Shown: positions 3,029 through 19,244, counted from the first letter of the stretch. The stretch is DNA of 31,136 nt from Candidatus Schekmanbacteria bacterium (GCA_016188575.1 JACPHN010000016.1:1-31136), one strand, 5' to 3'. Translations and numbers: made by a program. The notes: generated by a model not told the origin, from the sequence alone.

Positions 3029-5803
3029 ATGCGGACCATGTTGGATAGCTTCGGCACGAAATCGATACTCAAGCTCGGTGATACGTCGTACACCTACTAC
3101 TCGCTGCGTAATCTCGAGGCAGCGGGCTTTCCGCATTTGCCCTCGCTTCCGTATTCTCTACGCGTGCTTCTGGAGAACCTGCTGCGTTCGGAGGACGGCA
3201 AAGCCGTCACGAAGGCCGACATCGCGGCACTTGCGAGCTGGAATCCGGCCGCCGCCCCGGATCGGGAGATCGCATTCGCTCCGACGCGCGTCGTCCTTCA
3301 GGATTTTACCGGGGTGCCCGCCGTGGCCGACCTGGCGGCAATGCGTGACGCTGTCGTTGCGCTGGGCGGAGACGCGGCTCAGATCAACCCCTTGCAACCG
3401 GCCGATCTGGTCATCGATCACTCGGTGCAGGTTGATCGCTACGGCTCAGCGGATGCTCTGGCGTTCAACGCCCGCGTCGAGTTCGAGAGGAACAAGGAAC
3501 GCTACGTTTTTCTCAGGTGGGGACAGCGGGCTTTCCAGAAGTTCAGAGTGGTGCCGCCAGATACCGGCATCGTGCATCAGGTCAATCTCGAATATCTTGC
3601 CGAGGTGGTCAGTCAGCGGGAGCAGGACGCGGAAGTCGTGCTCGTGCCAGATACGCTCGTGGGCACGGACTCGCACACCGTGATGATCAATGGACTTGGC
3701 GTCCTGGGCTGGGGAGTCGGCGGCATCGAGGCCGAAGCGGTAATGCTCGGACAACCGATATCCATGCTGATCCCGCAAGTAGTCGGTTTCGAGCTCACCG
3801 AACGGCTGCCGGCCGGAGTCACCGCGACCGACCTGGTGCTCACCATCACGCAGCGGCTGCGGGAAGTGGGCGTGGTAGAGAAATTCGTCGAGTTCTACGG
3901 ATCGGGAGTGAGTGAGCTCAGTCTCGCGGATCGCGCCACCATATCGAATATGGCACCCGAATACGGAGCGACGATCGGGTTCTTCCCGGTCGACGTACAG
4001 ACACTCGAATATCTTCGCTTCACGGGCAGGTCCGACGAACAGGTCGCGCGCGTGGAAGCGTACTGCCGGGCCCAGGGGCTTTTTCGCACCCCGGAGTCGG
4101 CAACTCCTACCTTTTCGCAAGTGGTCCGTCTGGACCTGAGCACCGTCCGGCCGAGCCTGGCCGGCCCCAAGCGCCCTCAGGACAGGCTTGACCTCGGAGC
4201 CGTAAAGCTGTCTTTCCGCAAGGCGCTGAGCGAGGCTCACAAGGCGGAAGCGACGGCCATCCCAGGACCGGCGTTCGATGCCTGGATGGCCGGCGAGGAC
4301 GGCGTGGAGCTAGCGGCATTGGGCGTGCTTGGCAAGCGGGTGTCCATCTCATACGCGGACGGCCCACACAAGATTTCGCATGGCGCGGTCGCGATCGCCG
4401 CGATAACGAGCTGTACAAACACTTCGAACCCATCGGTAATCATCGCCGCGGGTCTGCTCGCGAAGGCCGCCGCCGAGCATGGGCTGCGCACCAAGCCCTG
4501 GGTGAAGACGAGTCTGGCGCCGGGCTCCCAGGTAGTCACCGAGTACCTGAAGGCGTCAGGCCTGCTGCCGTACCTGCAAAAACTCGGGTTCCACCTGGTT
4601 GGTTACGGGTGTACGACATGCATCGGCAACTCGGGTCCCCTGAGTGAAAAGGTGAGCACGGCCATTGTGGACAACGACCTGCTCGTGGCCGCGGTGCTTT
4701 CCGGGAACCGCAACTTCGAGGGCCGAATCAGCCCGCTCGTGCGCGCAAACTATCTCGCCTCGCCGCCGCTCGTCGTCGCCTTCGCAATTGCGGGAACTGT
4801 GGATATCGACCTCGAAAAGCAGCCGCTCGGCCACAATCACAACGGCAAACCCGTTTATCTGGCGGATATCTGGCCGACACCCGAGGACGTACAGGATGTC
4901 ATCCGCCATAGCGTGACCTCCGCACAGTACCGCTCCAAGTACGCCGACGTCTTCACCGGCCCCCCGATCTGGCGGGATCTCAAGGTGACCTCGAGCGACC
5001 TCTTCGCTTGGGATGCGGCGTCGACATACATCAAGCGGCCTCCGTTCTTTGACGGAATGAGCCTCGAGGTCACTGCTCCGGGCGACGTTACGGGCGCGCG
5101 AATCCTGGCCATCCTCGGAGACTCCGTGACCACGGACCACATTTCTCCGGCCGGTTCGATCAGCGCTCATGGCACGGCGGGCAAGTACCTGATCGAGCGG
5201 GGCGTGCCACCGGCGGAGTTCAACTCGTACGGCGCGCGCCGAGGCAACCACGAGGTCATGATTCGCGGCACGTTTGCCAATATCCGCTTGCGCAACCTCC
5301 TCGTGCCTGGCTCGGAGGGCAGCGTCACCAAACACTTCCCAAGCGGCGAGCAGATGACGATCTTCGACGCTGCGACGCGCTACGCGGGCGAGGCCGTTCC
5401 GTTGGTGCTCTTTGCGGGGCGGGAATACGGCACCGGCTCGTCGCGGGACTGGGCCGCCAAAGGGACGATGTTGCTCGGTGTCCGGGCGGTGATCGCCCAG
5501 AGCTTCGAGCGGATTCACCGCAGCAACCTGGTCGGCATGGGCGTGCTCCCGCTGCAGCTCGAACAGGGCGTGAGCGCCGGGTCGCTCCGTCTTCGTGGCG
5601 ACGAGACCGTGTCCATCCGCGGCATTTCCGACGGCCTGGTGCCTGGAATGCGGCTACAGCTCGAGGCGGTGCGAGCGGATGGCACGCCGGTCACGTTCTC
5701 TGCCGTAGCCCGGATCGACACGCCAAACGAAATCGACTACTATCGGCATGGCGGTATCCTCCGCTACGTGCTCCGTAACCTGATTTCACAGAAGTCGGGT
5801 TGA
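3029..5803 (+). CDS. acnA: aconitate hydratase A
   Basis: The product is 924 residues, the normal size for cytosolic AcnA/IRP-type aconitase, which interconverts citrate and isocitrate in the TCA cycle. The [4Fe-4S] ligands are visible as Cys462 in TSCTNTSNPS and Cys528/Cys531 in GYGCTTCIGNSG, with the spacing usual for AcnA. The swivelling C-terminal domain carries GREYGTGSSRDWAAKGT. ATG 3029 was chosen because CGGAGG at 3017-3022 lies 6 bases upstream; the longer open frame from 2732 has no such support, and ATG 3038 is a nearby alternative. The gene is intact. The stop TGA (5801-5803) sits inside a TTGACA that may serve as the -35 box of the next gene, so acnA may not be obligatorily co-transcribed with the TPR-PBP genes. 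Confidence 0.97.
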   Translation: MRTMLDSFGTKSILKLGDTSYTYYSLRNLEAAGFPHLPSLPYSLRVLLENLLRSEDGKAVTKADIAALASWNPAAAPDREIAFAPTRVVLQDFTGVPAVADLAAMRDAVVALGGDAAQINPLQPADLVIDHSVQVDRYGSADALAFNARVEFERNKERYVFLRWGQRAFQKFRVVPPDTGIVHQVNLEYLAEVVSQREQDAEVVLVPDTLVGTDSHTVMINGLGVLGWGVGGIEAEAVMLGQPISMLIPQVVGFELTERLPAGVTATDLVLTITQRLREVGVVEKFVEFYGSGVSELSLADRATISNMAPEYGATIGFFPVDVQTLEYLRFTGRSDEQVARVEAYCRAQGLFRTPESATPTFSQVVRLDLSTVRPSLAGPKRPQDRLDLGAVKLSFRKALSEAHKAEATAIPGPAFDAWMAGEDGVELAALGVLGKRVSISYADGPHKISHGAVAIAAITSCTNTSNPSVIIAAGLLAKAAAEHGLRTKPWVKTSLAPGSQVVTEYLKASGLLPYLQKLGFHLVGYGCTTCIGNSGPLSEKVSTAIVDNDLLVAAVLSGNRNFEGRISPLVRANYLASPPLVVAFAIAGTVDIDLEKQPLGHNHNGKPVYLADIWPTPEDVQDVIRHSVTSAQYRSKYADVFTGPPIWRDLKVTSSDLFAWDAASTYIKRPPFFDGMSLEVTAPGDVTGARILAILGDSVTTDHISPAGSISAHGTAGKYLIERGVPPAEFNSYGARRGNHEVMIRGTFANIRLRNLLVPGSEGSVTKHFPSGEQMTIFDAATRYAGEAVPLVLFAGREYGTGSSRDWAAKGTMLLGVRAVIAQSFERIHRSNLVGMGVLPLQLEQGVSAGSLRLRGDETVSIRGISDGLVPGMRLQLEAVRADGTPVTFSAVARIDTPNEIDYYRHGGILRYVLRNLISQKSG

Positions 5804-5828
5804 CATTCGCTGGGGCGCAGGGTAGAAG
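5800..5828 (+). promoter_or_regulatory. candidate promoter of TPR1, possibly giving a leaderless mRNA
   Basis: A perfect -35 box TTGACA (5800-5805), overlapping the acnA stop codon, is followed after 17 bases by TAGAAG (5823-5828, four of six matches). A start 7-9 bases downstream would fall at about 5835-5837, on the TPR1 ATG itself. The bases just before that ATG (GATCCCCCT) contain no Shine-Dalgarno sequence, which fits leaderless translation. Confidence 0.45.
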
Positions 5829-5836
5829 ATCCCCCT

Positions 5837-8257
5837 ATGCGGCAGTCCTGGCCAAAACTAGGGGTTCTTGTAGCGCTATTGGTGGCGATGGCCTCCTTGG
5901 TCGAAGCCCAGGTCTCGGTTTCGCCTCAGGCGCGCAATAACTACGACCAGGGCGTAGCCTTCGAAGAGCGGAGGGACTTGGAGCACGCGCGACAAGCCTA
6001 CGAGCGGGCGATCGAAATATCGCCGGGCTTCGCCTTGCCCTACGCCGCGCTCGGTCGCATGCATGCCAACGATGGGGCGCATGAGCGTGCCGTCGAGATG
6101 TTCCGGAAGTTTATCGCGCTCGACGCCACCGTCGCTGCCGTCCACTACAATCTGGGACGTTCGCTCCTGGCCTTGCAAAACCTTTCCGAAGCGACGAGCG
6201 AGTTTCGCCAGGCGGTGTCCCAGGATCCGACCTTCACGGAAGCGCGCGAGGCGTTGGGCGAGGTCCTTGCAGTTCAGGGCGACAAGGAGGGCGCGGCCGA
6301 GCAGTTTTCTCAGGCGCTGGAGCACAATCCGAGCTCGGTGCGAGCCAATACAGTCCTGGGCGGCATTCGCATGGAGCAGGGACGGCTCGATGAGGCGTTG
6401 TCCTATTTTCGCAAGGTCGTCGAGCTGACACCGAAGCAGCCGGTGCCGCGAATTCGCGTGGCCGATCTCCTGCGGATGACGGGGCAAGACGAGGAGGCGG
6501 CGAAGGCGTATCGGGAGCTGATAGAAGTCGCGCCTAATCTGAAGCAGGTCGCGATCGAGAACTTGGGCGACCTGGCTTTCAAGGCGGAAGATTTCGGCAA
6601 GGCGAAGGATTACTTCGAAGACTTGCGCAAGCTGCTCCCCGCCTACCCGGACGCCGCGGTGAAGCTGGCGCGCACCGAGGCCCGCCTGAAGCGAGTCGAG
6701 GCGGCGGAGAAGCTCTACCTGGAAGCGATCGGTCTCGCGGCCGGCCTGATGGACGCACGTCTGGAGCTCGCGGACCTGTACGCCGCGGCAAACCGTGCGG
6801 ATGATGCGGAAAAGACCCTGCTCGCTGCCCTCGCGCTGGCCCCGGAAACGGCGGCAGCACATGCGCGGCTGGCCGCGCTGCTCCAGGCCCGCGGCGATCG
6901 CGCGGGGGCGGCCGAGGCCTTCGAAAAGGCCGGAGCCGGCGCTGGGGCAGACGCGAGTCTGCTGGCCAAGGCCGGCTCGTTGTACCTCGAGATTGGAAAT
7001 CTGGAGAAGGCCGCCGGGATATTCGCGCAACTGATCGCCGGGGATCACGTTGCTGTCGGCGTGATTGTCGACTCCGGCGTCGCGGAATGGCTGCGAGGTG
7101 ACAGGGCGAAGGCTGTAGAGCGGTTCCGCGAAGCGGTCGAGTTGCATCCCGACGATCCGATTGCACAGTTCAGCGGCGCCGTTGCGCTGTTGGCAACGGG
7201 AAAGGCGGACGCGGCAGCGGAGCTTCTGGAAAAGGCCAAGGCTTCGCTCGGCAAGACCGCAGCCTTTGCCAACAACCTCGGTGCGCTCAGTCTGCTAAAA
7301 GGTGACGTGGCAGCCGCAGACCAGGCGCTCCAGAAAGCGGCCGACATGGAGCCTACCAACTGGCAGGTCAGCGTGAACCAGGCCCAGGCCGAGCTTCACA
7401 AGGGCGACGGCAGAGGGGCGTTCACGCGCCTGGAGGCGATTCTGCCAAAGGTAGAGGCGCCACCGGAGGAGTTGCTGTGGACGTACGCGGCTGCCGCAGC
7501 ACAAGCGGGCAGGACGGATGCAGCCAGCGCCACGCTGCAGACGCTCCGCGAGCGGCTCAAGGCGCGCGGCACTGACCTGCGGGAGCTCGACAAACTGCTC
7601 GCCTCCGTACTGCTTGCGCAACACAAGCCGCGTGAAGCTCTCGCCCTGCTCGACGAGCTCATCAAGGCAGCGCCGGAGCCGTCACCGGCGCTTCTGAATA
7701 ACCGCGCCGTCGCGCTGTTTGCTCTCGGTCAGGCAGCGGAAGCAGCCGCTGTACTGCAAAGCGCGGCGGCAAAGCAACCACAGGACGGCGATATCCAGGC
7801 AAACCTTGCCCTGGCATACGGAAGCACCGGCGACCGCGCCCAGGCGCTCGCGGCGCTGCGATCGTCTCTGGGAGCGGGCGGCGCACAGGCCAGTGCGGCC
7901 GACTACTACCGCCTGGGCCTTGCATACTACCAGAATGGCCTTTCCAAGGACGCGGCAGAAGCTTTCGCACAGTCGCTGCAGCGCGAGGAGCGGCAACCGC
8001 GCGCACTGGGAGCGCTCGCGGTCGTGCAGTACGAGCTCGGGGATCAGGCCGCGGCCCAACGCAGCGCTGAGCGCGCGCTGGCCCTCGATGCCGGAGAGCT
8101 CAACAGCTTGCTCGTCCTCGGCATCTGCCTGGACGAGCAAGCAAACGACAAGGCGCGCGCAGTCGAGCTCTATCGACGCTATGTTGCGGCCGGCGGCAAG
8201 CGGTCCACCGAAGTGACCGCCTGGATTGCCTCACTGGAGCGCGTTTATGGCCTGTAG
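5837..8257 (+). CDS. exported TPR-repeat protein (TPR1)
   Basis: The product is 806 residues. The N-terminus LGVLVALLVAMASLVEA is a Sec signal peptide with likely cleavage after residue 24, so the protein is probably periplasmic. Almost the entire mature chain is tandem tetratricopeptide repeats, recognisable from about residue 33 (NYDQGVAFEERRDLEHARQAYERAI) onwards, typically ending in A-x-x-x-x-P. No catalytic domain was seen. TPR arrays are protein-binding scaffolds. The C-terminus ends with RAVELYRRYVAAGG followed by a V-x-x-WI segment, shared in form with TPR2. The start codon lacks a ribosome binding site (see the promoter entry). The stop overlaps the PBP1 start by 11 bases, implying translational coupling. 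Partner proteins are unknown; the adjacent binding protein is the obvious candidate. Confidence 0.88.
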   Translation: MRQSWPKLGVLVALLVAMASLVEAQVSVSPQARNNYDQGVAFEERRDLEHARQAYERAIEISPGFALPYAALGRMHANDGAHERAVEMFRKFIALDATVAAVHYNLGRSLLALQNLSEATSEFRQAVSQDPTFTEAREALGEVLAVQGDKEGAAEQFSQALEHNPSSVRANTVLGGIRMEQGRLDEALSYFRKVVELTPKQPVPRIRVADLLRMTGQDEEAAKAYRELIEVAPNLKQVAIENLGDLAFKAEDFGKAKDYFEDLRKLLPAYPDAAVKLARTEARLKRVEAAEKLYLEAIGLAAGLMDARLELADLYAAANRADDAEKTLLAALALAPETAAAHARLAALLQARGDRAGAAEAFEKAGAGAGADASLLAKAGSLYLEIGNLEKAAGIFAQLIAGDHVAVGVIVDSGVAEWLRGDRAKAVERFREAVELHPDDPIAQFSGAVALLATGKADAAAELLEKAKASLGKTAAFANNLGALSLLKGDVAAADQALQKAADMEPTNWQVSVNQAQAELHKGDGRGAFTRLEAILPKVEAPPEELLWTYAAAAAQAGRTDAASATLQTLRERLKARGTDLRELDKLLASVLLAQHKPREALALLDELIKAAPEPSPALLNNRAVALFALGQAAEAAAVLQSAAAKQPQDGDIQANLALAYGSTGDRAQALAALRSSLGAGGAQASAADYYRLGLAYYQNGLSKDAAEAFAQSLQREERQPRALGALAVVQYELGDQAAAQRSAERALALDAGELNSLLVLGICLDEQANDKARAVELYRRYVAAGGKRSTEVTAWIASLERVYGL

Positions 8258-9269
8258 TGGGCGCGTTGCCTTCGGTCTGTGGGCCGCGGTCTCGGGGCTA
8301 CTGCTTCCGTGCCTTGCCGCAGCAGCCGCACCGACTCTGGTGCTCTACTACCCCGATGCCCGGTTTCACGACGCTGTCGAGGCAGGCAGCGTGTTACAGA
8401 AGCTTGCCAAAGATCTGAGCGAAGGTACAGGCCTCGAGATCTCTGCGCAGTTTTTCCAGAAGGGCAAGGACGCAACTGAACATTTCCGCAGCGGACGGCC
8501 CACAGTCGGGATTCTCGACAGCCGCTTCTACGCCGAGTACGGGGGCGAATTCGGCCTGACGTATCTCGCCAGCCCGCTGGTTTCGGGGCGCACCACCTAT
8601 GAGCTGGCCCTGGTCGTCAAGGCGGATTCTGCGGCCAAGAACATTCGCGACCTCGCGGGGACAATTCTCGCCACGTCCTACCCCGGACGGATTGGTGCGG
8701 CGTTCCTGTCGAACATCGCACTCGAGGGCCATCTGGATGCGCAGGTGCACTTCGGCGAGCTACGCCCCGTGGATAGTGCCGCCTCGGCAATCGCAGCGGT
8801 TCTCATCACCGAGGCAACGGCCGCTTTTGCGCCGCTGGACGGCCTGGCCGAGATGGGTCGCGCCGCGGAGGTGCGCGCGATCCTGACAACACAGCCCATT
8901 CCGCTGCCCCCCCTCTGCATGACGCGAGGCGCCCTCAGCGAGGAGGACGCACAACGGCTCGTCAGCGTGTTCGAGAAGCTTGGAGAGACCGCAAGCGGGC
9001 GCCAGATCCTCGCGGGTTTTGGGTTTACCGGTTTTTCGCGAGGCCCCGCACCGGCCCTTACCGCGGCGGTCTCCCTCTTGAACGCGGCACCCGCCTCCGT
9101 TCGCAAGCGGCCTGTCATCGAGGAGAGCGGTGCGGCGGGAGAAATGCTCGTAAAAACGGAGTTGCCGCAGCTCCAGCCACTATTGATTCCGATGCCGACC
9201 TACGCTGAGGACGACCTCCTCGTGGCCAAGAAGACGCCTGATGATCCCCAGGCAGCGGACCGGGAGTGA
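8247..9269 (+). CDS. PhnD-like periplasmic substrate-binding protein (PBP1)
   Basis: The product is 340 residues from ATG 8247, preceded by GGAG at 8236-8239 and overlapping the TPR1 end. A TTG seven codons upstream is less likely because the signal peptide (VAFGLWAAVSGLLLPCLAAAAA) fits ATG 8247. The mature part begins TLVLYYPDARFHDAVEAG and has the texture of phosphate/phosphonate-type binding proteins: LGILDSRFY-like strand, then YELALVVKADSAAKNIRDLAG, the usual hinge and PHN-like second lobe. The ligand cannot be told from sequence. No permease or functional ATPase is adjacent, so classical import is not supported here. It is paralogous to PBP2 at 12011 (both have a Y-[YW]-P then F-x-DAVE opening). 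TPR2 follows after 7 bases. Confidence 0.75.
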   Translation: MACSGRVAFGLWAAVSGLLLPCLAAAAAPTLVLYYPDARFHDAVEAGSVLQKLAKDLSEGTGLEISAQFFQKGKDATEHFRSGRPTVGILDSRFYAEYGGEFGLTYLASPLVSGRTTYELALVVKADSAAKNIRDLAGTILATSYPGRIGAAFLSNIALEGHLDAQVHFGELRPVDSAASAIAAVLITEATAAFAPLDGLAEMGRAAEVRAILTTQPIPLPPLCMTRGALSEEDAQRLVSVFEKLGETASGRQILAGFGFTGFSRGPAPALTAAVSLLNAAPASVRKRPVIEESGAAGEMLVKTELPQLQPLLIPMPTYAEDDLLVAKKTPDDPQAADRE

Positions 9270-9276
9270 GATGTAG

Positions 9277-11967
9277 ATGTTGTTTGGGAAGAAGAATCGG
9301 ACCGCCTACCTGAAGATCGCCCTGGCCAGCTTGTTCGCCGCATGGAGCTGGGTTGCTCCTGTCGTCGCCCAGCAGACACCGGAGCCTGCGGCCGCCACGG
9401 AAGCGGAAAAGAAGAGGCAGGCCGAACAGGCTTACGAACAGGCCCGCGACCTGATGGACGCCAAGAAAACCGACGAAGCGTTGGCGGCGCTAAAGCGCGC
9501 CAGTGAGCTTGATCCAACTTCCGCCAATGCCTTCTTCGACATGGGGGCGATATACTACCAAAAAGGCGATACCGAAAGCGCCGTGAAGAGCTTTCTCACG
9601 GCAAAGGACCTTTCACCCAATAATCCGGAAGTCTATTTCAATTTAGGGGCCAGCTACAATAAGATGGAGCAAGTTGACAAAGCGGAAGAGACGCTTCGTG
9701 AATGCTTGCGCCTGAAAAAGGACCATCTCAAGGCAACCTACTTGCTCGGGCTTGTTCTGACTAAGATGAAGCGATTCGATGACGCTATTGTAGTCTACCA
9801 GGGAGCTATATCCGCGAACGGATCCGACTGGAATCTGCATTATCTTCTTGGGAATTCCTACTACCTGAAGGGGTCCGAGGATAACGCAATCACCGCGTAC
9901 GAGCGCGCGCTTGAGCTGAACCGCGGGAATGTCCAGGTGGCGAATAACTTGGGGAACTTGTACTACAAGCGTGGAAACTATGAGCGGGCCCAGAAATATT
10001 ACAAGGAGGGGCTGGCTGACGTTGCCGGCGAGCTGGAGCGCGGCGCCGTTGTAGACAAGAAATTTGCACTTCCCTTTTATAATCTTGGCAACTCGTTATA
10101 CCAAAATCAGCAGTACGATGAAGCAGTCAAAGCTTATCAGAATGCGCTGAAGATAGACGCAAACAACGCCCTTGCGTATTTCAACCTTGGCAACATACTG
10201 TTCACAAAGAAACAGTATCAGGGCGCCCTCGATATGTACGAGATGACTCTGAAACAGGATCCGAATTATCTCGCAGTCCACTATAATATAGGAAATACGC
10301 TCTTCATGCTCGGAAATATCGAAAAAGCCTTTGAGCAATACCAGCTCATTTTAGGAAAAGGCGACGCATACAATAAGGTCCACTTCAAGGTCGGCCACTA
10401 TTACTTTGAGAAGGGCCAACTGGAGAAGGCTCTTCAGGAGTACCAGGCTGGCCTCAGCACCGCCGCAGACGCTGTGGACGGTGTTGTCTACAAGAACCTC
10501 AGCCAAATTTATCTGGAAAACGCCGATCACGCCAAAGCTATGGAAAGCGTCCAATCGGCCCTGGCAATCGATGCCAACGATACCGAGGCGAAAGTCTTGA
10601 TGGCAGTTACCCGATATCGAATGGGCGATACAAAGGGTGCCGAAGAGGCCTTCCAGGCTACGCTTCGGCAGGACTCCAAGAATGCGGCGGCGCTTTTTGG
10701 CCTGGGAGCGCTCTATTTTGAGATGGCGGATTACACGAAGGCCCAAGAAATGTTCGACGCCTCTAATAAGGCGTCTCCCAACATGGTGACATTGTATAAT
10801 GTCGCACAGTGCCTGAACCGACTTGGTCAGCAGGCGAAAGCTGCCGACTCGCTCAACGATGCCCTGCGGGCTCCGTTTGCGCGCTTTGGAAACGTCAAGC
10901 GCAAAGAAGTAGCCGTGGCTCGGATCAAGGCTCTGCAAGGCGACTTCCTCTTTTCCCAGGGTGACATGGCCAAAGCCGTATCTGCCTACGAGGAAGCCCT
11001 GGGCGAGGCCAAGGGGATTCAGGCCGTGACCATTCTCAATAACTTGGCGCTGGCCCATGCGCAGGAGAAGAACTACGACAAGGCACATGAAGCGCTGAAG
11101 CGCGCTCTCGGCTTGGGGACAGACACCGGCCTTACCCAGCACAGTCTGGGTCACCTCTTGACGACAATGGGCAAGGACCAGGAGGCAGTCGATGCGTTCA
11201 CCAAGGCTGTCCAGGCAGATGCGGAGAGTTTTTCGCCGCGCTACGGACTGGCCGCCGCATATTTTCGCTCCGGCCGCTATGCCGAAGCGATTCCGGAGTA
11301 CGAGGCGGCGCTGCGGATCCTCGGCGCGATCCCGGAGAGCGAACGTGTCGTCGGCGTGGATAGGAAGCAAGTCGCGGCGTCGATTACCGCGGCAATCGGC
11401 CAGGCGCACTACTTCGCCGGGCAGCTTGAGCCGGCGATCCAGAGCCTGGAACAGCTCAAAGGAACTCCCGAGGAGGCCAACGTCAAGCCCGTACTGCTGG
11501 CGTGCTACGCGCGGCTCGGCGACAGCCACCTGCAGGCCGGTGATTTCGAGCATGCCGTGCAGTTTTTCAAGAAGGCGATCGACGGCGGTCTCGGCGATGT
11601 TGTCGTGCATAACAACATCGGCGTCGCCTATTTCCACCAGGGCAACGGAGAGCGCGCGCGGGCGTCCTTCGACAAGGCCGTAGAGCTTGACGGCGCCTCG
11701 AAAGAAGCGCGTAACAACGCGGCTGTCAGCAAGTTGGAGAGCGGGCAGATCGACGCCGCAAAGGACGGATTCGAGCAGCTGGTCTCGGGAACAAGCGCCT
11801 TCGTTCCGGCGCTTCGAAATCTGGGAATCTACTACGATCGGTATCGCGGGCAACCTGGAGAGGCCATCGCAATGTATGAAAAGTACGTGGCGGCCAATGG
11901 GACCGACCGGGCTCTCGTGGAAAAGTGGATAGAAGTCAAGAAGCAGTTGTTTGTTCCCGAGAATTGA
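9277..11967 (+). CDS. exported TPR-repeat protein (TPR2)
   Basis: The product is 896 residues. ATG 9277 follows GGAGTGAG (9262-9269) that overlaps the PBP1 stop. The signal peptide IALASLFAAWSWVAPVVA is likely cut after about residue 32, followed by a charged Q/E/K-rich linker and then many canonical TPRs, many of the form A-x-x-x-x-NLGNxxxxxxxxxxA. The repeats cover nearly all of the mature protein. Residues about 100-480 are encoded by clearly more AT-rich DNA (AAT, TAT, ATA codons) than the C-terminal third or the neighbouring genes, suggesting mosaic history. The C-terminus (EAIAMYEKYVAANG, then VEKWIEVKKQL) parallels the TPR1 end. Probably a periplasmic scaffold paired with PBP1 or PBP2. 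Confidence 0.88.
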   Translation: MLFGKKNRTAYLKIALASLFAAWSWVAPVVAQQTPEPAAATEAEKKRQAEQAYEQARDLMDAKKTDEALAALKRASELDPTSANAFFDMGAIYYQKGDTESAVKSFLTAKDLSPNNPEVYFNLGASYNKMEQVDKAEETLRECLRLKKDHLKATYLLGLVLTKMKRFDDAIVVYQGAISANGSDWNLHYLLGNSYYLKGSEDNAITAYERALELNRGNVQVANNLGNLYYKRGNYERAQKYYKEGLADVAGELERGAVVDKKFALPFYNLGNSLYQNQQYDEAVKAYQNALKIDANNALAYFNLGNILFTKKQYQGALDMYEMTLKQDPNYLAVHYNIGNTLFMLGNIEKAFEQYQLILGKGDAYNKVHFKVGHYYFEKGQLEKALQEYQAGLSTAADAVDGVVYKNLSQIYLENADHAKAMESVQSALAIDANDTEAKVLMAVTRYRMGDTKGAEEAFQATLRQDSKNAAALFGLGALYFEMADYTKAQEMFDASNKASPNMVTLYNVAQCLNRLGQQAKAADSLNDALRAPFARFGNVKRKEVAVARIKALQGDFLFSQGDMAKAVSAYEEALGEAKGIQAVTILNNLALAHAQEKNYDKAHEALKRALGLGTDTGLTQHSLGHLLTTMGKDQEAVDAFTKAVQADAESFSPRYGLAAAYFRSGRYAEAIPEYEAALRILGAIPESERVVGVDRKQVAASITAAIGQAHYFAGQLEPAIQSLEQLKGTPEEANVKPVLLACYARLGDSHLQAGDFEHAVQFFKKAIDGGLGDVVVHNNIGVAYFHQGNGERARASFDKAVELDGASKEARNNAAVSKLESGQIDAAKDGFEQLVSGTSAFVPALRNLGIYYDRYRGQPGEAIAMYEKYVAANGTDRALVEKWIEVKKQLFVPEN

Positions 11968-12010
11968 CGTCGACTGACGCTCCATCGACCGCGCGTTGGT
12001 GAGAAAAGAG

Positions 12011-13027
12011 ATGAGCATGCTCTCGCGAAGATCGGTACAGTGTGCAACTTTGGTGATCGTGGGTGGGCTTTGCGCACTCTTTCCGCGCCCCGCCATGGCG
12101 GCCGCGGTAGCCATGTACTGGCCGGGAAATCCTTTTCCGGACGCAGTCGAGGGCACGGTCGCGCTGACGGCGTTCAGCGCTTACCTCGGCACCAAGGCCA
12201 ATGTCGGCGGCGAGCTCAAGACTTCCTTCTTCAAGAAGGCTGAGGACTTCGACTCTTTTGGGAAATCAGAAAGTTTGGCGCTGGCGCTGCTCGACCCGGC
12301 CTCATTTCTGGCGCGACAGGAGACCCTCGGGCTGGTCCCGGTCGGCCTAGCGCTGCAGGACAACTCCGTGCAGCTTGATTACGTAGTCGCGGTATCGCGT
12401 GACTCGCCAGCAAAGTCGCTCGCGGATCTTCGCGACAAGTCGGTGTCGGCCTCGGCAAGCGATGCGACGTCACTCAAGCTGCTCTCCAACTGGACCTTCT
12501 GGGGTGAAATCGATGTCGGCAAATTCTTCAGCGCGATCAAGTCGGCGGAGTCAGCGTCCTCGGCCGTACTGGCCGTAGTTTACCGAACCGCTGATGCGGC
12601 GATCACGCCCCTGAGTAACCCTGTGCTGAAGCAGAACGTGCAGGCGGGAAAAGTGAGGGTCTTGGTGCACTTGCACCGCACGGTGGATCTTGTTGCGTCT
12701 TGCTCCAGCGGCGCCATGGACGCTCAGGCGATCCAACGGGTGCGCGCCGCCCTGCTAGAAATGTCGACTGCGCCCGAGGGCCGCAAGGTGCTGGACAAGC
12801 TCGGGATTCAGGGATGGCAGACCGATGGCGTTTCCTTGCTCGTGGAGGACGTTCGCCAAGCGGTCAAGAAGAGCGCTGCGGAGCTCTATCCGCGCCCCCT
12901 CGAGGTGGTGGCGGTGCCCCTTGACAGCGACACCATGGAGAAGCCCACCTCCCCCTTTGTACTGCCCTGGACGCTACGCACGGATGCCTCGGTGCTGGGC
13001 CTATCTACTGCTCAACAGCACCCATGA
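12011..13027 (+). CDS. PhnD-like periplasmic substrate-binding protein (PBP2)
   Basis: The product is 338 residues. ATG 12011 was chosen because the AG-rich GAGAAAAGAG precedes it and because it opens a signal peptide (CATLVIVGGLCALFPRPAMA, cut near residue 30); TTG 11996 or GTG 11999 are alternatives. The mature chain starts AAVAMYWPGNPFPDAVEGT and runs through LDYVVAVSRDSPAKSLADLRDKSV, which aligns by eye with PBP1 (VLYYPDARFHDAVE; YELALVVKADSAAKNIRDLAG). The two are diverged paralogues. It lies 43 bases after TPR2, repeating the TPR-then-PBP order. The C-terminal extension PRPLEVVAVPLDSD lies beyond the usual domain. The ligand is unknown and no cognate permease is present in the window. 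Confidence 0.72.
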   Translation: MSMLSRRSVQCATLVIVGGLCALFPRPAMAAAVAMYWPGNPFPDAVEGTVALTAFSAYLGTKANVGGELKTSFFKKAEDFDSFGKSESLALALLDPASFLARQETLGLVPVGLALQDNSVQLDYVVAVSRDSPAKSLADLRDKSVSASASDATSLKLLSNWTFWGEIDVGKFFSAIKSAESASSAVLAVVYRTADAAITPLSNPVLKQNVQAGKVRVLVHLHRTVDLVASCSSGAMDAQAIQRVRAALLEMSTAPEGRKVLDKLGIQGWQTDGVSLLVEDVRQAVKKSAAELYPRPLEVVAVPLDSDTMEKPTSPFVLPWTLRTDASVLGLSTAQQHP

Positions 13028-13029
13028 GC

Positions 13030-13046
13030 GAGCGGGCCTGCCGCTC
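13030..13046. terminator. GC-rich hairpin between convergent genes
   Basis: GAGCGG, a five-base loop GCCTG, then CCGCTC forms a six-bp stem in the gap between the PBP2 stop and the convergent ATPase stop. No U-tract follows on either strand, so intrinsic termination is only a possibility. Confidence 0.25.
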
Positions 13047-13726
13047 AGACGTACTGGATAGGTCCATCTTCGCGCCCCTCCACGAACTGACGTACGTAGG
13101 GGTGCTCTGAGGCCATGATCTCCTGCGGCGTCCCCGTAGCGAGTATCTTTCCGCCGTAGAGCATCGCCAGACGCGTGCCAATTTTCCGCGCGGTGTGCAT
13201 GTCGTTCGACACTGCGAGGCTCGCAACTTCGTGCTTGCGGTTAAGCGTCAGAATGAGCTCATTGATGACGTCCGACGTCACCGGGTCCAGGCCACCGGTC
13301 GGGTCATCGTAGAGGACCACCCGCGGCCGATGAATCAGGGCTCGCGCGATACCGACGCGCTTTTTCATGCCACCGCTGAGCTGGGAAGGTTTCAGGTCCG
13401 CAATGCTCGGCGACAGATCGACAGCCTGGAGCATGGCAGTAACCTCTTTGCGGATCTCGGATGGTGTCAGGCGGGAGTACTCGATCAGCGCAAAGCCGAC
13501 GTTTTCGTAGACGGTCATGGAGTCGAACAGTGCGTAGTTCTGAAAAACCATGCCCATGTTTCTCCGGACATCTAGCAGGGCGGCACCCGACAGCGATGCG
13601 ATGTCCTGGTCGCCGATCCAGACCTCGCCCGAATCCGGCCGCATCAGTCCCATGCACCTCCACGGAGGTCCCGTCAAGAAGCAGATTGTTGCCGAAACGC
13701 TTGGTGATGCTGTTAAGGCGAATCAA
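13045..13726 (-). pseudogene. MlaF/Mkl-like ABC ATPase, Walker A deleted and frame broken
   Basis: TTG 13726 has GGAGA (13734-13738) seven bases upstream and encodes MIRLNSITKRFGNNLLLDG, a normal ABC ATPase N-terminus. At about 13650-13656 the frame changes and coding resumes at GLMRPDSGEVWIGDQD, so the segment that should hold the Walker A P-loop (about 25 residues) is absent. Downstream motifs remain: Q-loop MVFQNYALFDSMTVYENVGF, signature LSGGMKKRVGIARAL, and Walker B VVLYDDPTGGLDP, where the usual catalytic Glu is Asp (codon 13303-13305). The H-loop reads AVSNDMH, with Asn for the switch His (codon 13204-13206). The family normally powers MCE-type lipid transport with a permease and MCE protein, neither of which is here. 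It converges on PBP2 with 17 bases between the stops. It appears inactive, unless the deletion is an assembly fault. Confidence 0.75.
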
Positions 13727-17251: not shown

Positions 17252-18168
17252 TGTGGATCGCGCGCCGCGCCAGCCGCCTGGTGCGCGCTGGTAATCCCAA
17301 TCTTCTGCTGTTCCACAGCCGCTTGCTGCCCCCGGCACGCGTGGTTAGCAACCTCGAGCCGTTCTCCGTCCGCAGCCTGGATGCCGGCCTGCGCGCCAGG
17401 ACCCAACCCCAAGATGTAGCTCTCCTTCACCAGCTCGCGAGCCGACACGTCGGTCTGGACCAGCAGGTGGCGGCCGCACTCGTCGCCGACGTCGGCTCTC
17501 AGGTGGTCGTGCGCAAGGCATCCTTCGACGCTTTTTCCGTCGCGACCACTACCGCGAGCCTGTGCGACTCCGCGGCCCCGGCCGTCACACGTGCTTGCGG
17601 GCACTTCGTCGTCAAGGCGGGGCCCCAGGTGCTTCGCCCATGCGCCGCCACCGTACGGCCTCACACGGGGCTCGAGATTCACCGCGCAGCGATTCACCAT
17701 CTGCAAGAGGCGCTCGGCCTGGGGCGGCTCCGGTCGCACGTGATTCCCATCTTGGCGCCCCGAGCGCGCGTCCGCAACGGCTTGCGATTGTTTTGCAACG
17801 TCCCGATTCGCAGGCACTCCAGAATCCTGTCGCGCATTCCCCGCGCAAACATCCTGGCATTTTGGCGCGAAATGGTGAAAAGCACCGGCGAGAGTCCTTC
17901 CGCCTATCGGTTGTGCGGTATCTTCGACAGCATTCCTGCGTCCGTAATGAGCGCGCTGCAACTCGACTCATCCGGGCAAGTTCTCTTGATTCACCCTTCC
18001 AAGGCCGGTGAGGAAGCCGGCGGCGGCCTTCTAAGGGGGCGACAGAAGGCGCGGCCAGAGGTCCTTATCGTCAGCGTCTACCGAAATCAGTCCACCGGGC
18101 GAGTCATCCTGTGCAGCCATCGGCGGGAGCCGCAACCTGAACCAGCCGCTGGAGAAGGCCGTCGATGA
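17224..18168 (+). CDS. hypothetical protein, second gene of the GGDEF operon
   Basis: The product is 314 residues and was not recognised. The third codon positions are GC-rich along the frame, and the frame joins its neighbours in a typical operon fashion: GGAGG (17215-17219) four bases before GTG 17224, and an ATGA overlap with the downstream gene (ATG 18165, TGA 18166-18168). ATG 17251, overlapping the upstream TGA, is an alternative start. The N-terminus is arginine-rich (RRTVRRALMWIARRASRLVR). The middle has few obvious motifs, and the C-terminal part contains SGQVLLIHPSKAGEEAGGG and VLIVSVYRNQSTGRVILCSH. A resemblance of the middle to amidases was considered and not supported. The chain might be a degraded or divergent gene. 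Confidence 0.5.
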   Translation: MRRTVRRALMWIARRASRLVRAGNPNLLLFHSRLLPPARVVSNLEPFSVRSLDAGLRARTQPQDVALLHQLASRHVGLDQQVAAALVADVGSQVVVRKASFDAFSVATTTASLCDSAAPAVTRACGHFVVKAGPQVLRPCAATVRPHTGLEIHRAAIHHLQEALGLGRLRSHVIPILAPRARVRNGLRLFCNVPIRRHSRILSRIPRANILAFWREMVKSTGESPSAYRLCGIFDSIPASVMSALQLDSSGQVLLIHPSKAGEEAGGGLLRGRQKARPEVLIVSVYRNQSTGRVILCSHRREPQPEPAAGEGRR

Positions 18169-19244
18169 GCGATTTGAACCAACAGCTTTCGACCACGGAC
18201 GCCGACCGCACGACCATAACCGATACTGGCGCACGCAGTGCCGCGGCAGACCCGAGCTCCGACCCTCAGGAGATTTTCTGCGTTCTCAGCGTCATCTCGG
18301 GCGCCGGGTTCGGCGCCGAATTCGTGCTGAGCGCGCCCAGCACGGTAGTGGGGAGGAGCTCTGAGGCCGAGATTGTCCTCCAAGACGATCGCATCTCTCG
18401 CCGCCACGCTCGCATTTTCCAGATTTCGGCGGAGAACGATCGACATGGCCCTGAGCATGAGGTTGAGGATCTCGGCAGCACCAACGGCATCTTCGTGAAC
18501 AACGAGCGTGTCTCGCGTCGCAAGCTCGCCGATGGGGACAAGATTCGCATCGGCAGCACCGTCCTGCGGTACGAATCCCGAGACGCGGTCGACCACGCCT
18601 ACCACGTCCGCATGTCGCGGCTCGCCCGCATTGACGAGCTCACGGGGTTGCTCAACCGCGCCAGCATCGAGCAGGAGTTTCATCGGGAGTACGCGCGCGC
18701 GCTGCGATACCGGCGCTCCCTTGCGATTGCGCTGCTCGACCTCGACCACTTCAAGCACATCAACGACACGCATGGCCACGCTGCCGGTGACATTACGCTC
18801 AAAAGGTTGGGCATGCTGCTCCTCGGAGCGCTGCGCCAGCAAGATCAGGCCGGTCGCTACGGCGGCGAGGAGTTCCTGTTGCTGCTGCCGGAAACAAGCC
18901 CCCAGGCGGCGGCCGCGGTTGCTGAGCGCCTGCGCCGTCAGCTCGAGTCTCAGCCTATGGTTCTCGACAAATGCGAGATCCCCGTCACAGCAAGCATCGG
19001 CGTCGCCGGTTTCGAGGGAAGTAGCCCCGCTGCGAAGCTGCTCTCGCGAAACGGCGGGTGGTTAGTCGAGCTCGCGGACGCCCGCCTCTATCGGGCCAAG
19101 GCCGACGGCCGGAATCGAGTTTGTAACGAAGGAGGCGACAGCGCGACCAGCAGTGCTTGCGCCGACGCTACCCAGGAGCGCGCGGCCGCGAATACCCACG
19201 AGATCGACCTGGGCCAGACCAACCTGGCTGGCAGCGGGGAGTAG
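18165..19244 (+). CDS. FHA-GGDEF diguanylate cyclase
   Basis: The product is 359 residues and makes cyclic di-GMP from two GTP. An FHA domain (about residues 38-135) shows STVVGRSSEAEIVLQDDRIS, RRHARIF and DLGSTNGIFVNNERV, the classic phosphothreonine-binding features. A GGDEF domain (about residues 150-315) follows with DELTGLLNRASIEQEF, DLDHFKHINDTHGHAAGD and the active-site GGEEF at residues 233-237. An inhibitory I-site RxxD (RQQD, residues 224-227) precedes it by five residues, so product feedback inhibition is expected. No signal peptide or membrane segment is present. The start overlaps the upstream stop (ATGA). The last 50 or so residues form a low-complexity tail, and the final 183 bases overlap the convergent mtaB gene. 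Input is probably a Ser/Thr-phosphorylated partner; the partner is unknown. Confidence 0.94.
   Translation: MSDLNQQLSTTDADRTTITDTGARSAAADPSSDPQEIFCVLSVISGAGFGAEFVLSAPSTVVGRSSEAEIVLQDDRISRRHARIFQISAENDRHGPEHEVEDLGSTNGIFVNNERVSRRKLADGDKIRIGSTVLRYESRDAVDHAYHVRMSRLARIDELTGLLNRASIEQEFHREYARALRYRRSLAIALLDLDHFKHINDTHGHAAGDITLKRLGMLLLGALRQQDQAGRYGGEEFLLLLPETSPQAAAAVAERLRRQLESQPMVLDKCEIPVTASIGVAGFEGSSPAAKLLSRNGGWLVELADARLYRAKADGRNRVCNEGGDSATSSACADATQERAAANTHEIDLGQTNLAGSGE

Follow-up and report, generated by a model that had tools for sequence, protein, structure and literature searches.

What do two exported, PhnD-like periplasmic binding proteins (PBPs) do in a locus that encodes no permease? The question is raised by four genes at positions 5837-13027 of the window, that is, the whole 31,136-nt stretch of DNA analyzed here, which corresponds to contig C272 in a genome of 9.2 Mb where the binding-protein family PF12974 has 37 matches. 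Each of the two PBP genes follows a gene for a long TPR protein. We report that such pairs form a previously unnamed gene module, present in at least two bacterial phyla, which has no inner-membrane importer in the loci read and usually has a TonB-dependent receptor (TBDR) next to it. A description of a TPR-PBP-TBDR unit was not found in the open-access literature, to which the search was confined (subscription journals were outside its scope).

The tandem cassette and its surroundings

The four genes lie on the plus strand in the order TPR1-PBP1-TPR2-PBP2. TPR1 (5837..8257) encodes an exported, all-TPR protein of 806 aa with about 22 helical hairpins and a C-terminal cap, and TPR2 (9277..11967) encodes an exported all-TPR protein of 896 aa, as judged from Pfam and a BLASTP matrix. 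PBP1 (8247..9269 from an ATG; a TTG at 8226 is possible and would give 347 aa) is an exported type II PBP of PF12974, and PBP2 (12011..13027 from an ATG; TTG at 11996 possible, 343 aa) is an exported member of the same family. With the ATG starts, TPR1 and PBP1 overlap by 11 bases, while 7 bases separate PBP1 from TPR2 and 43 bases separate TPR2 from PBP2, exactly the spacings given in an earlier sequence-only reading of the window. By eye, the N-termini of the cassette proteins resemble signal peptides.

That reading had described both TPR proteins as almost entirely repeats with a common C-terminal signature, and the two binding proteins as paralogues. All of this holds. Pfam TPR families cover nearly the full length of both TPR proteins, the AlphaFold model of TPR1 is all helix, with the hairpins counted above and a mean pLDDT of 87.3, and the C-terminal signature occurs in TPR1 and TPR2 and is recognizable in most of their relatives. 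The matches to PF12974 lie far above the curated cut-off of 27 bits (PBP1, E 5e-25, 88.7 bits; PBP2, E 6.9e-20, 71.9 bits), and the two PBPs are 27% identical over 248 aa (E 4e-20).

Upstream, acnA (aconitate hydratase; 3038..5803, plus strand; NCBIfam AcnA over its cut-off) ends 33 bases before TPR1. No terminator-like site was found in the gap, and acnA is possibly co-transcribed with TPR1. Downstream, and convergent with PBP2, lies the remnant of an MlaF-like ABC ATPase (13045..13677, minus strand), which is outside the module. It matches ABC_tran with an E of 5.1e-20 over profile positions 32-136 only, and Walker A is absent from it in every frame, in keeping with its first description as degenerate. 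No permease is encoded anywhere in the window, as had also been noted, and neither window pair has a TBDR, SpoIIE, kinase or cyclase gene immediately adjacent.

Recurrence and shared history of the pair

Neighboring TPR and PBP genes recur well beyond the window, in the same genome, in its phylum and in Myxococcota, as the sequence-only reading had proposed to check. The genome itself holds seven TPR-PBP units at six loci: two in the window, four pairs on contigs C225, C262, C241 and C264, and a natural fusion on C235. In the fusion protein (1203 aa), the TPRs span residues 32-769 and the PF12974 match spans residues 911-1138, with no second signal peptide by eye. This fusion is the only pointer to contact between the two partners, and a suggestive one. 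Altogether, a long TPR gene lies directly upstream of, or is fused to, 7 of the 37 PF12974 genes. At most 0.7 such neighbors are expected by chance (P ~1e-5), a generous figure that assumes 150 TPR genes and an estimated total of ~8,000 genes, and the pairing is thus beyond chance. An 817-aa gene upstream of the PBP gene on C217 was considered as a further TPR partner and proved to encode a ClpB-type AAA protein; neither aconitase nor CarD recurs with the module.

Within the phylum, pairs are also present in its two other large genomes, G001 and G002, which belong to two other families; the two genes overlap by 8 bases in one pair and stand 1 base apart in the other. An FHA-GAF-cyclase gene begins 111 bases past the PBP gene of G001, and the G002 pair has no TBDR, SpoIIE, kinase or cyclase gene immediately beside it. 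A search for related loci with PBP1 alone returned no matches.

The two partners appear to have been inherited together. TPR and PBP similarities are correlated among the seven units of the genome (Mantel r 0.69, p 0.0012) and among twelve units (r 0.62, p 5e-5). Mapped onto a tree of 95 PBPs, linkage to a TPR gene changes 4 times, against 14.2 times with shuffled labels, and a single clade of the TPR-linked PBPs is not rejected by the AU test (p 0.638), its likelihood lying above that of the free search. A single origin of the TPR-linked PBPs is therefore likely, not proven; the branches are long. In the BLASTP matrix, cassette 1 is nearest to the G001 pair, from another family. Cassette 2 has its closest relatives within its own genome, in the C235 fusion and the pair on C241, TPR2 being closest to the TPR half of C235 and the TPR protein of C241, and PBP2 to the PBP half of C235. 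Since their nearest relatives differ, the window tandem consists of two old lineages standing side by side, and the earlier description of the cassette as duplicated and diverged is right only in a deep sense.

Four of the ten TBDRs in the genome adjoin TPR-PBP pairs, and the remaining TBDR loci have no such pair; there is no TBDR at C235 or in the G001 locus. This outer-membrane receptor, the usual partner of the module, was beyond the view of the sequence-only reading. A PhnE-type permease adjoins just one of the 37 PF12974 genes, on C37, where an ATPase accompanies it. Other PF12974 PBPs, here and elsewhere, often have histidine kinase, GGDEF or chemoreceptor genes adjacent to them, and roles other than transport are thus common for this fold. 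No TPR-PBP pair of the genome has an adjacent sensor histidine kinase, the trait of AioX and ArrX.

The binding pocket and the nearest known systems

The residues with which AioX and PhnD hold an oxyanion have been described (PMC5908839). We compared 15 TPR-linked PBPs at the AioX positions Y88, Y131, S161, S163 and H192. The histidine at 192 is kept in none of the 15, Y131 in one, and a serine or threonine at 161 in two, whereas the ABC-type protein of C37 keeps all five pocket residues. An aspartate occupies the cleft position of AioX Cys106 in 12 of the 15. With the oxyanion pocket lost, a phosphonate or phosphite ligand appears unlikely from the sequences, and a larger or hydrophobic ligand is plausible. 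The ligand is named neither by a riboswitch, since Rfam, run on the window together with eight related loci, gave only one tRNA (in L091), nor by the receptors, two of which were compared with the PDB and matched generic siderophore, heme and B12 receptors only.

These residues bear on the reading that the module serves ordinary ABC import, with permease and ATPase encoded elsewhere. Binding proteins are sometimes encoded away from their permease, and the genome has 32 BPD_transp_1 matches besides its one PhnD-type ABC locus on C37. However, no permease was seen near any TPR-PBP locus read, across many genera of two phyla, and the pocket residues of the C37 protein are gone from the TPR-linked PBPs. 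We consider this reading very unlikely: unlike the PhnCDE and PtxABC importers, the module has neither a linked permease with an intact ATPase nor the oxyanion pocket.

Among solved proteins, the profile of the TPR-linked PBPs is nearest to BstB (95.8 bits, vs. 42 for AioX). The AlphaFold model of PBP1, built from five sequences only and with a core pLDDT of ~85, has BstB as its nearest solved fold (7t1m, Z 22.7; next 18.7), and it also matches the folds of PtxB, AioX and PhnD, all consistent with a type II PBP fold. BstB belongs to a lipid-transport system, an observation that runs counter to sensing.

The likeness to BstB gives weight to a relay, in which the TPR solenoid would take a hydrophobic or bulky ligand from a TBDR or the outer membrane and hand it to the PBP for delivery to an inner-membrane transporter encoded elsewhere (or work the other way round, outward), the signaling neighbors found in myxobacteria being an addition and not the purpose. 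Two known systems offer models. In TPAT (TatT-TatP) of Treponema pallidum, a TPR-like periplasmic protein is encoded beside a PBP and has been crystallized in complex with it, with a hydrophobic cleft and pore (PMC5812351); the physical pairing in our module would be comparable. In the Bst system of Methylococcus (BstA-BstB-BstC), a PF12974 PBP that likewise lacks the oxyanion pocket has a TPR-like partner, BstC (PMC10942540). The differences are nevertheless clear. The TPAT PBP is of the DctP type, its TPR protein is a short TAtT protein and its operon includes a DctQM permease, whereas the module has a PF12974 PBP, a TPR protein of ~22 canonical repeats and, as its usual neighbor, a TBDR instead of a permease. 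Neither TPR1 nor TPR2 belongs to the TAtT (T-component) family PF16811, whose sole match in the genome is on C37 (29522-30325). Against the BstB model NF045601 (cut-off 350 bits), PBP1 scores 46.8 and PBP2 19.6, compared with 401 for a true myxobacterial BstB. MMPL (BstA) and TAtT (BstC) are absent from the window but present with BstB in another locus, L204; myxobacterial BstB loci keep MMPL, while no DctQM, MMPL or ABC permease occurs in any TPR-PBP locus. We regard the relay as a serious contender that is probably not the explanation, and we prefer sensing.

Precedent for sensing comes from AioX and ArrX, which demonstrate that PF12974 proteins can signal without transport; the AioXSR and ArrXSR arsenic-sensing systems differ from the module in their histidine kinase output, their intact oxyanion pocket and the lack of a TPR protein or TBDR (PMC5908839). 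The module thus joins a TPR-type protein to a PBP as TPAT and Bst do, uses PF12974 without transport as AioXSR does, and lacks a defining feature of each.

Myxobacterial loci and a model for sensing

A profile from nine TPR-linked PBPs was run against 386 genomes. The best match outside the phylum of the window was in G035, where the TPR and PBP genes are directly followed by a TBDR gene. G035 belongs to a phylum represented by 195 genomes; among them, 58 from a single family, the Myxococcaceae, score at least 174 bits. We read 49 of these 58 loci with small profiles of our own making, using Pfam as a check on representatives. The TPR gene is directly upstream of the PBP gene in all 49, with a 4-base overlap in 45. 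Every one of the loci also contains a TBDR and a HAMP-SpoIIE phosphatase; a homologue of a ~280-aa gene is present in 48 and a Ser/Thr kinase in 46, the missing ones falling at contig ends. A permease is found in none of the 49, nor in any other TPR-PBP locus read. With the pairing conserved and no permease in the loci read, neither of the two observations that the sequence-only reading had named as contrary to it, a linked permease and intact ATPase throughout or an unconserved pairing, was made.

These neighbors suggest partner switching (SpoIIE/RsbW/STAS), as judged from the proteins they encode. The ~280-aa protein has ELxxNA, DxxG and GGGLGL motifs, which are GHKL-like, and its G401 homologue has a weak Pfam HATPase match (E 0.12); a protein profile search of the PDB matched no GHKL structure, so the assignment remains a reading of motifs. 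The Ser/Thr kinase has a STAS-like match below the Pfam cut-off. In G401, from a different myxobacterial family, the genes occur in another order (TPR-PBP-GHKL-like-Cache/HAMP/SpoIIE-TBDR), and in G492 and G451 the TPR gene adjoins the PBP gene with no receptor within the stretch read. None of the partner-switching components is beside the window cassette. In Myxococcus xanthus the only SpoIIE-like phosphatase is MXAN_4562, which carries a HAMP domain (PMC2887360), and the outer-membrane vesicles of this species contain the TonB-dependent receptor MXAN_4559 (PMC3222651, PMC4158809). We infer that the operon in this species runs from MXAN_4562 to about MXAN_4557, with MXAN_4561 and MXAN_4560 as the expected tpr and pbp genes.

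The recurrent neighbors also bear on a role in envelope assembly, in which the TPR solenoid would be the scaffold of a machine in the outer membrane or the periplasm, with the PBP as a ligand-free structural partner. Long TPR proteins often work in machines for secretion and motility, the top NCBIfam matches are PrsT, PilW and MamA (all generic TPR matches), and the PBP pocket residues have diverged. On the other hand, what recurs beside the pairs is TBDR and SpoIIE genes and not secretion, pilus or polysaccharide genes, and the aspartate at the cleft position is mostly retained. Assembly seems to us highly improbable.

Given the lack of an inner-membrane importer, the usual receptor and the myxobacterial signaling genes, the module probably senses (or relays) a molecule and does not import it. 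Sensing is favored over import by the partner-switching type of membrane phosphatase present in all 49 Myxococcaceae loci and in one locus of another myxobacterial family; of the earlier proposal of sensing or assembly instead of transport, the preference for sensing over import stands, while transport or a relay of the TPAT or Bst kind is a less probable alternative. The reading that we prefer, with a probability of about 0.5, is that of a conserved periplasmic TPR-PBP ligand-capture module, usually served by a TBDR, that signals at the inner membrane and feeds no permease. The long TPR solenoid and the BstB-like type II PBP would act as one unit, probably as a physical complex. Evidence for the unit comes from adjacency, one fusion and co-inheritance; the lack of permeases, the frequent TBDR and the invariant SpoIIE of the Myxococcaceae loci read are likewise observed. 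As the gene neighborhood and the lost pocket suggest, the neighboring receptor would admit a specific ligand, probably other than an oxyanion, to the periplasm, where the binding protein would capture it and the TPR solenoid dock it. At the inner membrane the liganded complex would then act as a signal and not be passed to an ABC permease. In the Myxococcaceae, where the operon is observed, a partner-switching system would read the complex through its HAMP-SpoIIE phosphatase, and the two window pairs may each signal the presence of a different ligand to an output whose genes lie at another site.

In TonB-dependent signaling of the FecA-FecR type, the receptor FecA uses its N-terminal domain to signal to FecR and a sigma factor. 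The proposed arrangement is similar in linking an outer-membrane TBDR to inner-membrane signaling, and it would differ in placing a PBP and a TPR protein between the two and in having a SpoIIE phosphatase as partner in myxobacteria. Because the pairs next to a TBDR in the window's genome have no SpoIIE or kinase genes, the evidence for signaling comes from another phylum, at ~25% identity. That no pair of this genome, TBDR-linked or otherwise, has an adjacent SpoIIE gene, and that the window pairs lack a receptor too, is the strongest point against sensing in the window.

More tentatively, the module may be part of a new form of trans-envelope signaling, in which a TBDR would import the ligand, a BstB-like PBP on a TPR solenoid would capture it, and the complex would set a membrane SpoIIE in a partner-switching circuit. 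Such signaling would be both widespread and uniform within the Myxococcaceae (including, by inference, MXAN_4562-4557 of M. xanthus), and the genome of the window would hold an expanded, partly fused sensory half. The module joins in one conserved unit three parts that are normally studied apart, namely TonB-dependent uptake, PBPs and TPR solenoids, and it offers a testable reason why many genes annotated as PhnD have no permease. The operon is shared with the Myxococcaceae, some of which are genetically tractable, so the molecule that is sensed or carried is directly approachable.

Genes flanking the cassette

The 3' end of acnA lies 33 bases ahead of the start of TPR1 (window 3038-5837). No terminator-like site was identified in this acnA-TPR1 gap, so the aconitase promoter may be a source of cassette transcription in this genome, by read-through. 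On the other side of the cassette is the remnant of an MlaF-like ABC ATPase (window 13045-13677, minus strand), which lacks its N-terminal portion, including Walker A, and whose apparent N-terminus sits in a different frame. The missing part reflects either a deletion or an assembly error.

PhnD-like binding proteins are greatly expanded in the genome that carries the cassette, which has 37 PF12974 loci. Many of these are lone genes without a recognisable partner, and a permease adjoins the PF12974 gene at only one of the 37.

Candidate signalling genes and TonB-dependent receptors

Second-messenger outputs may be encoded by an FHA-GGDEF gene lying about 5 kb beyond the 3' end of the cassette (window 18165-19244, plus strand) and by an FHA-GAF-cyclase gene (L121 9212-10843, plus strand) directly downstream of the TPR-PBP pair in G001, a genome from another family of the same phylum. 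At another locus (L172 4661-10098), one run of genes encodes a TonB-dependent receptor, two substrate-binding proteins (one of PF12974, the other of PF04392) and a HAMP-chemoreceptor, possibly representing receptor-to-chemotaxis wiring without a TPR protein.

On C264, a contig of the cassette's own genome with another TPR-PBP pair, the receptor gene is followed after a 6-base gap by a gene for a 258-aa protein with a 5'-nucleotidase C-terminal domain (PF02872, 2.7e-31); the stretch is L092 478-3345. The TonB-dependent receptors of Myxococcaceae (L165, L197, L202) carry a Lys-, Pro- and Ala-rich N-terminal extension of ~170-200 residues ahead of the plug domain.

Probable Bst-type loci in myxobacteria

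Many myxobacteria outside Myxococcaceae encode a large multi-TM protein followed by a PF12974 protein, often with a ~270-aa protein (L204, L205, L206, L208 and L210-L214, among others). The L204 genes were verified as encoding an MMPL protein, a true BstB and a TAtT-like protein, and thus loci of the Bst sterol type are probably common in the myxobacterial phylum.
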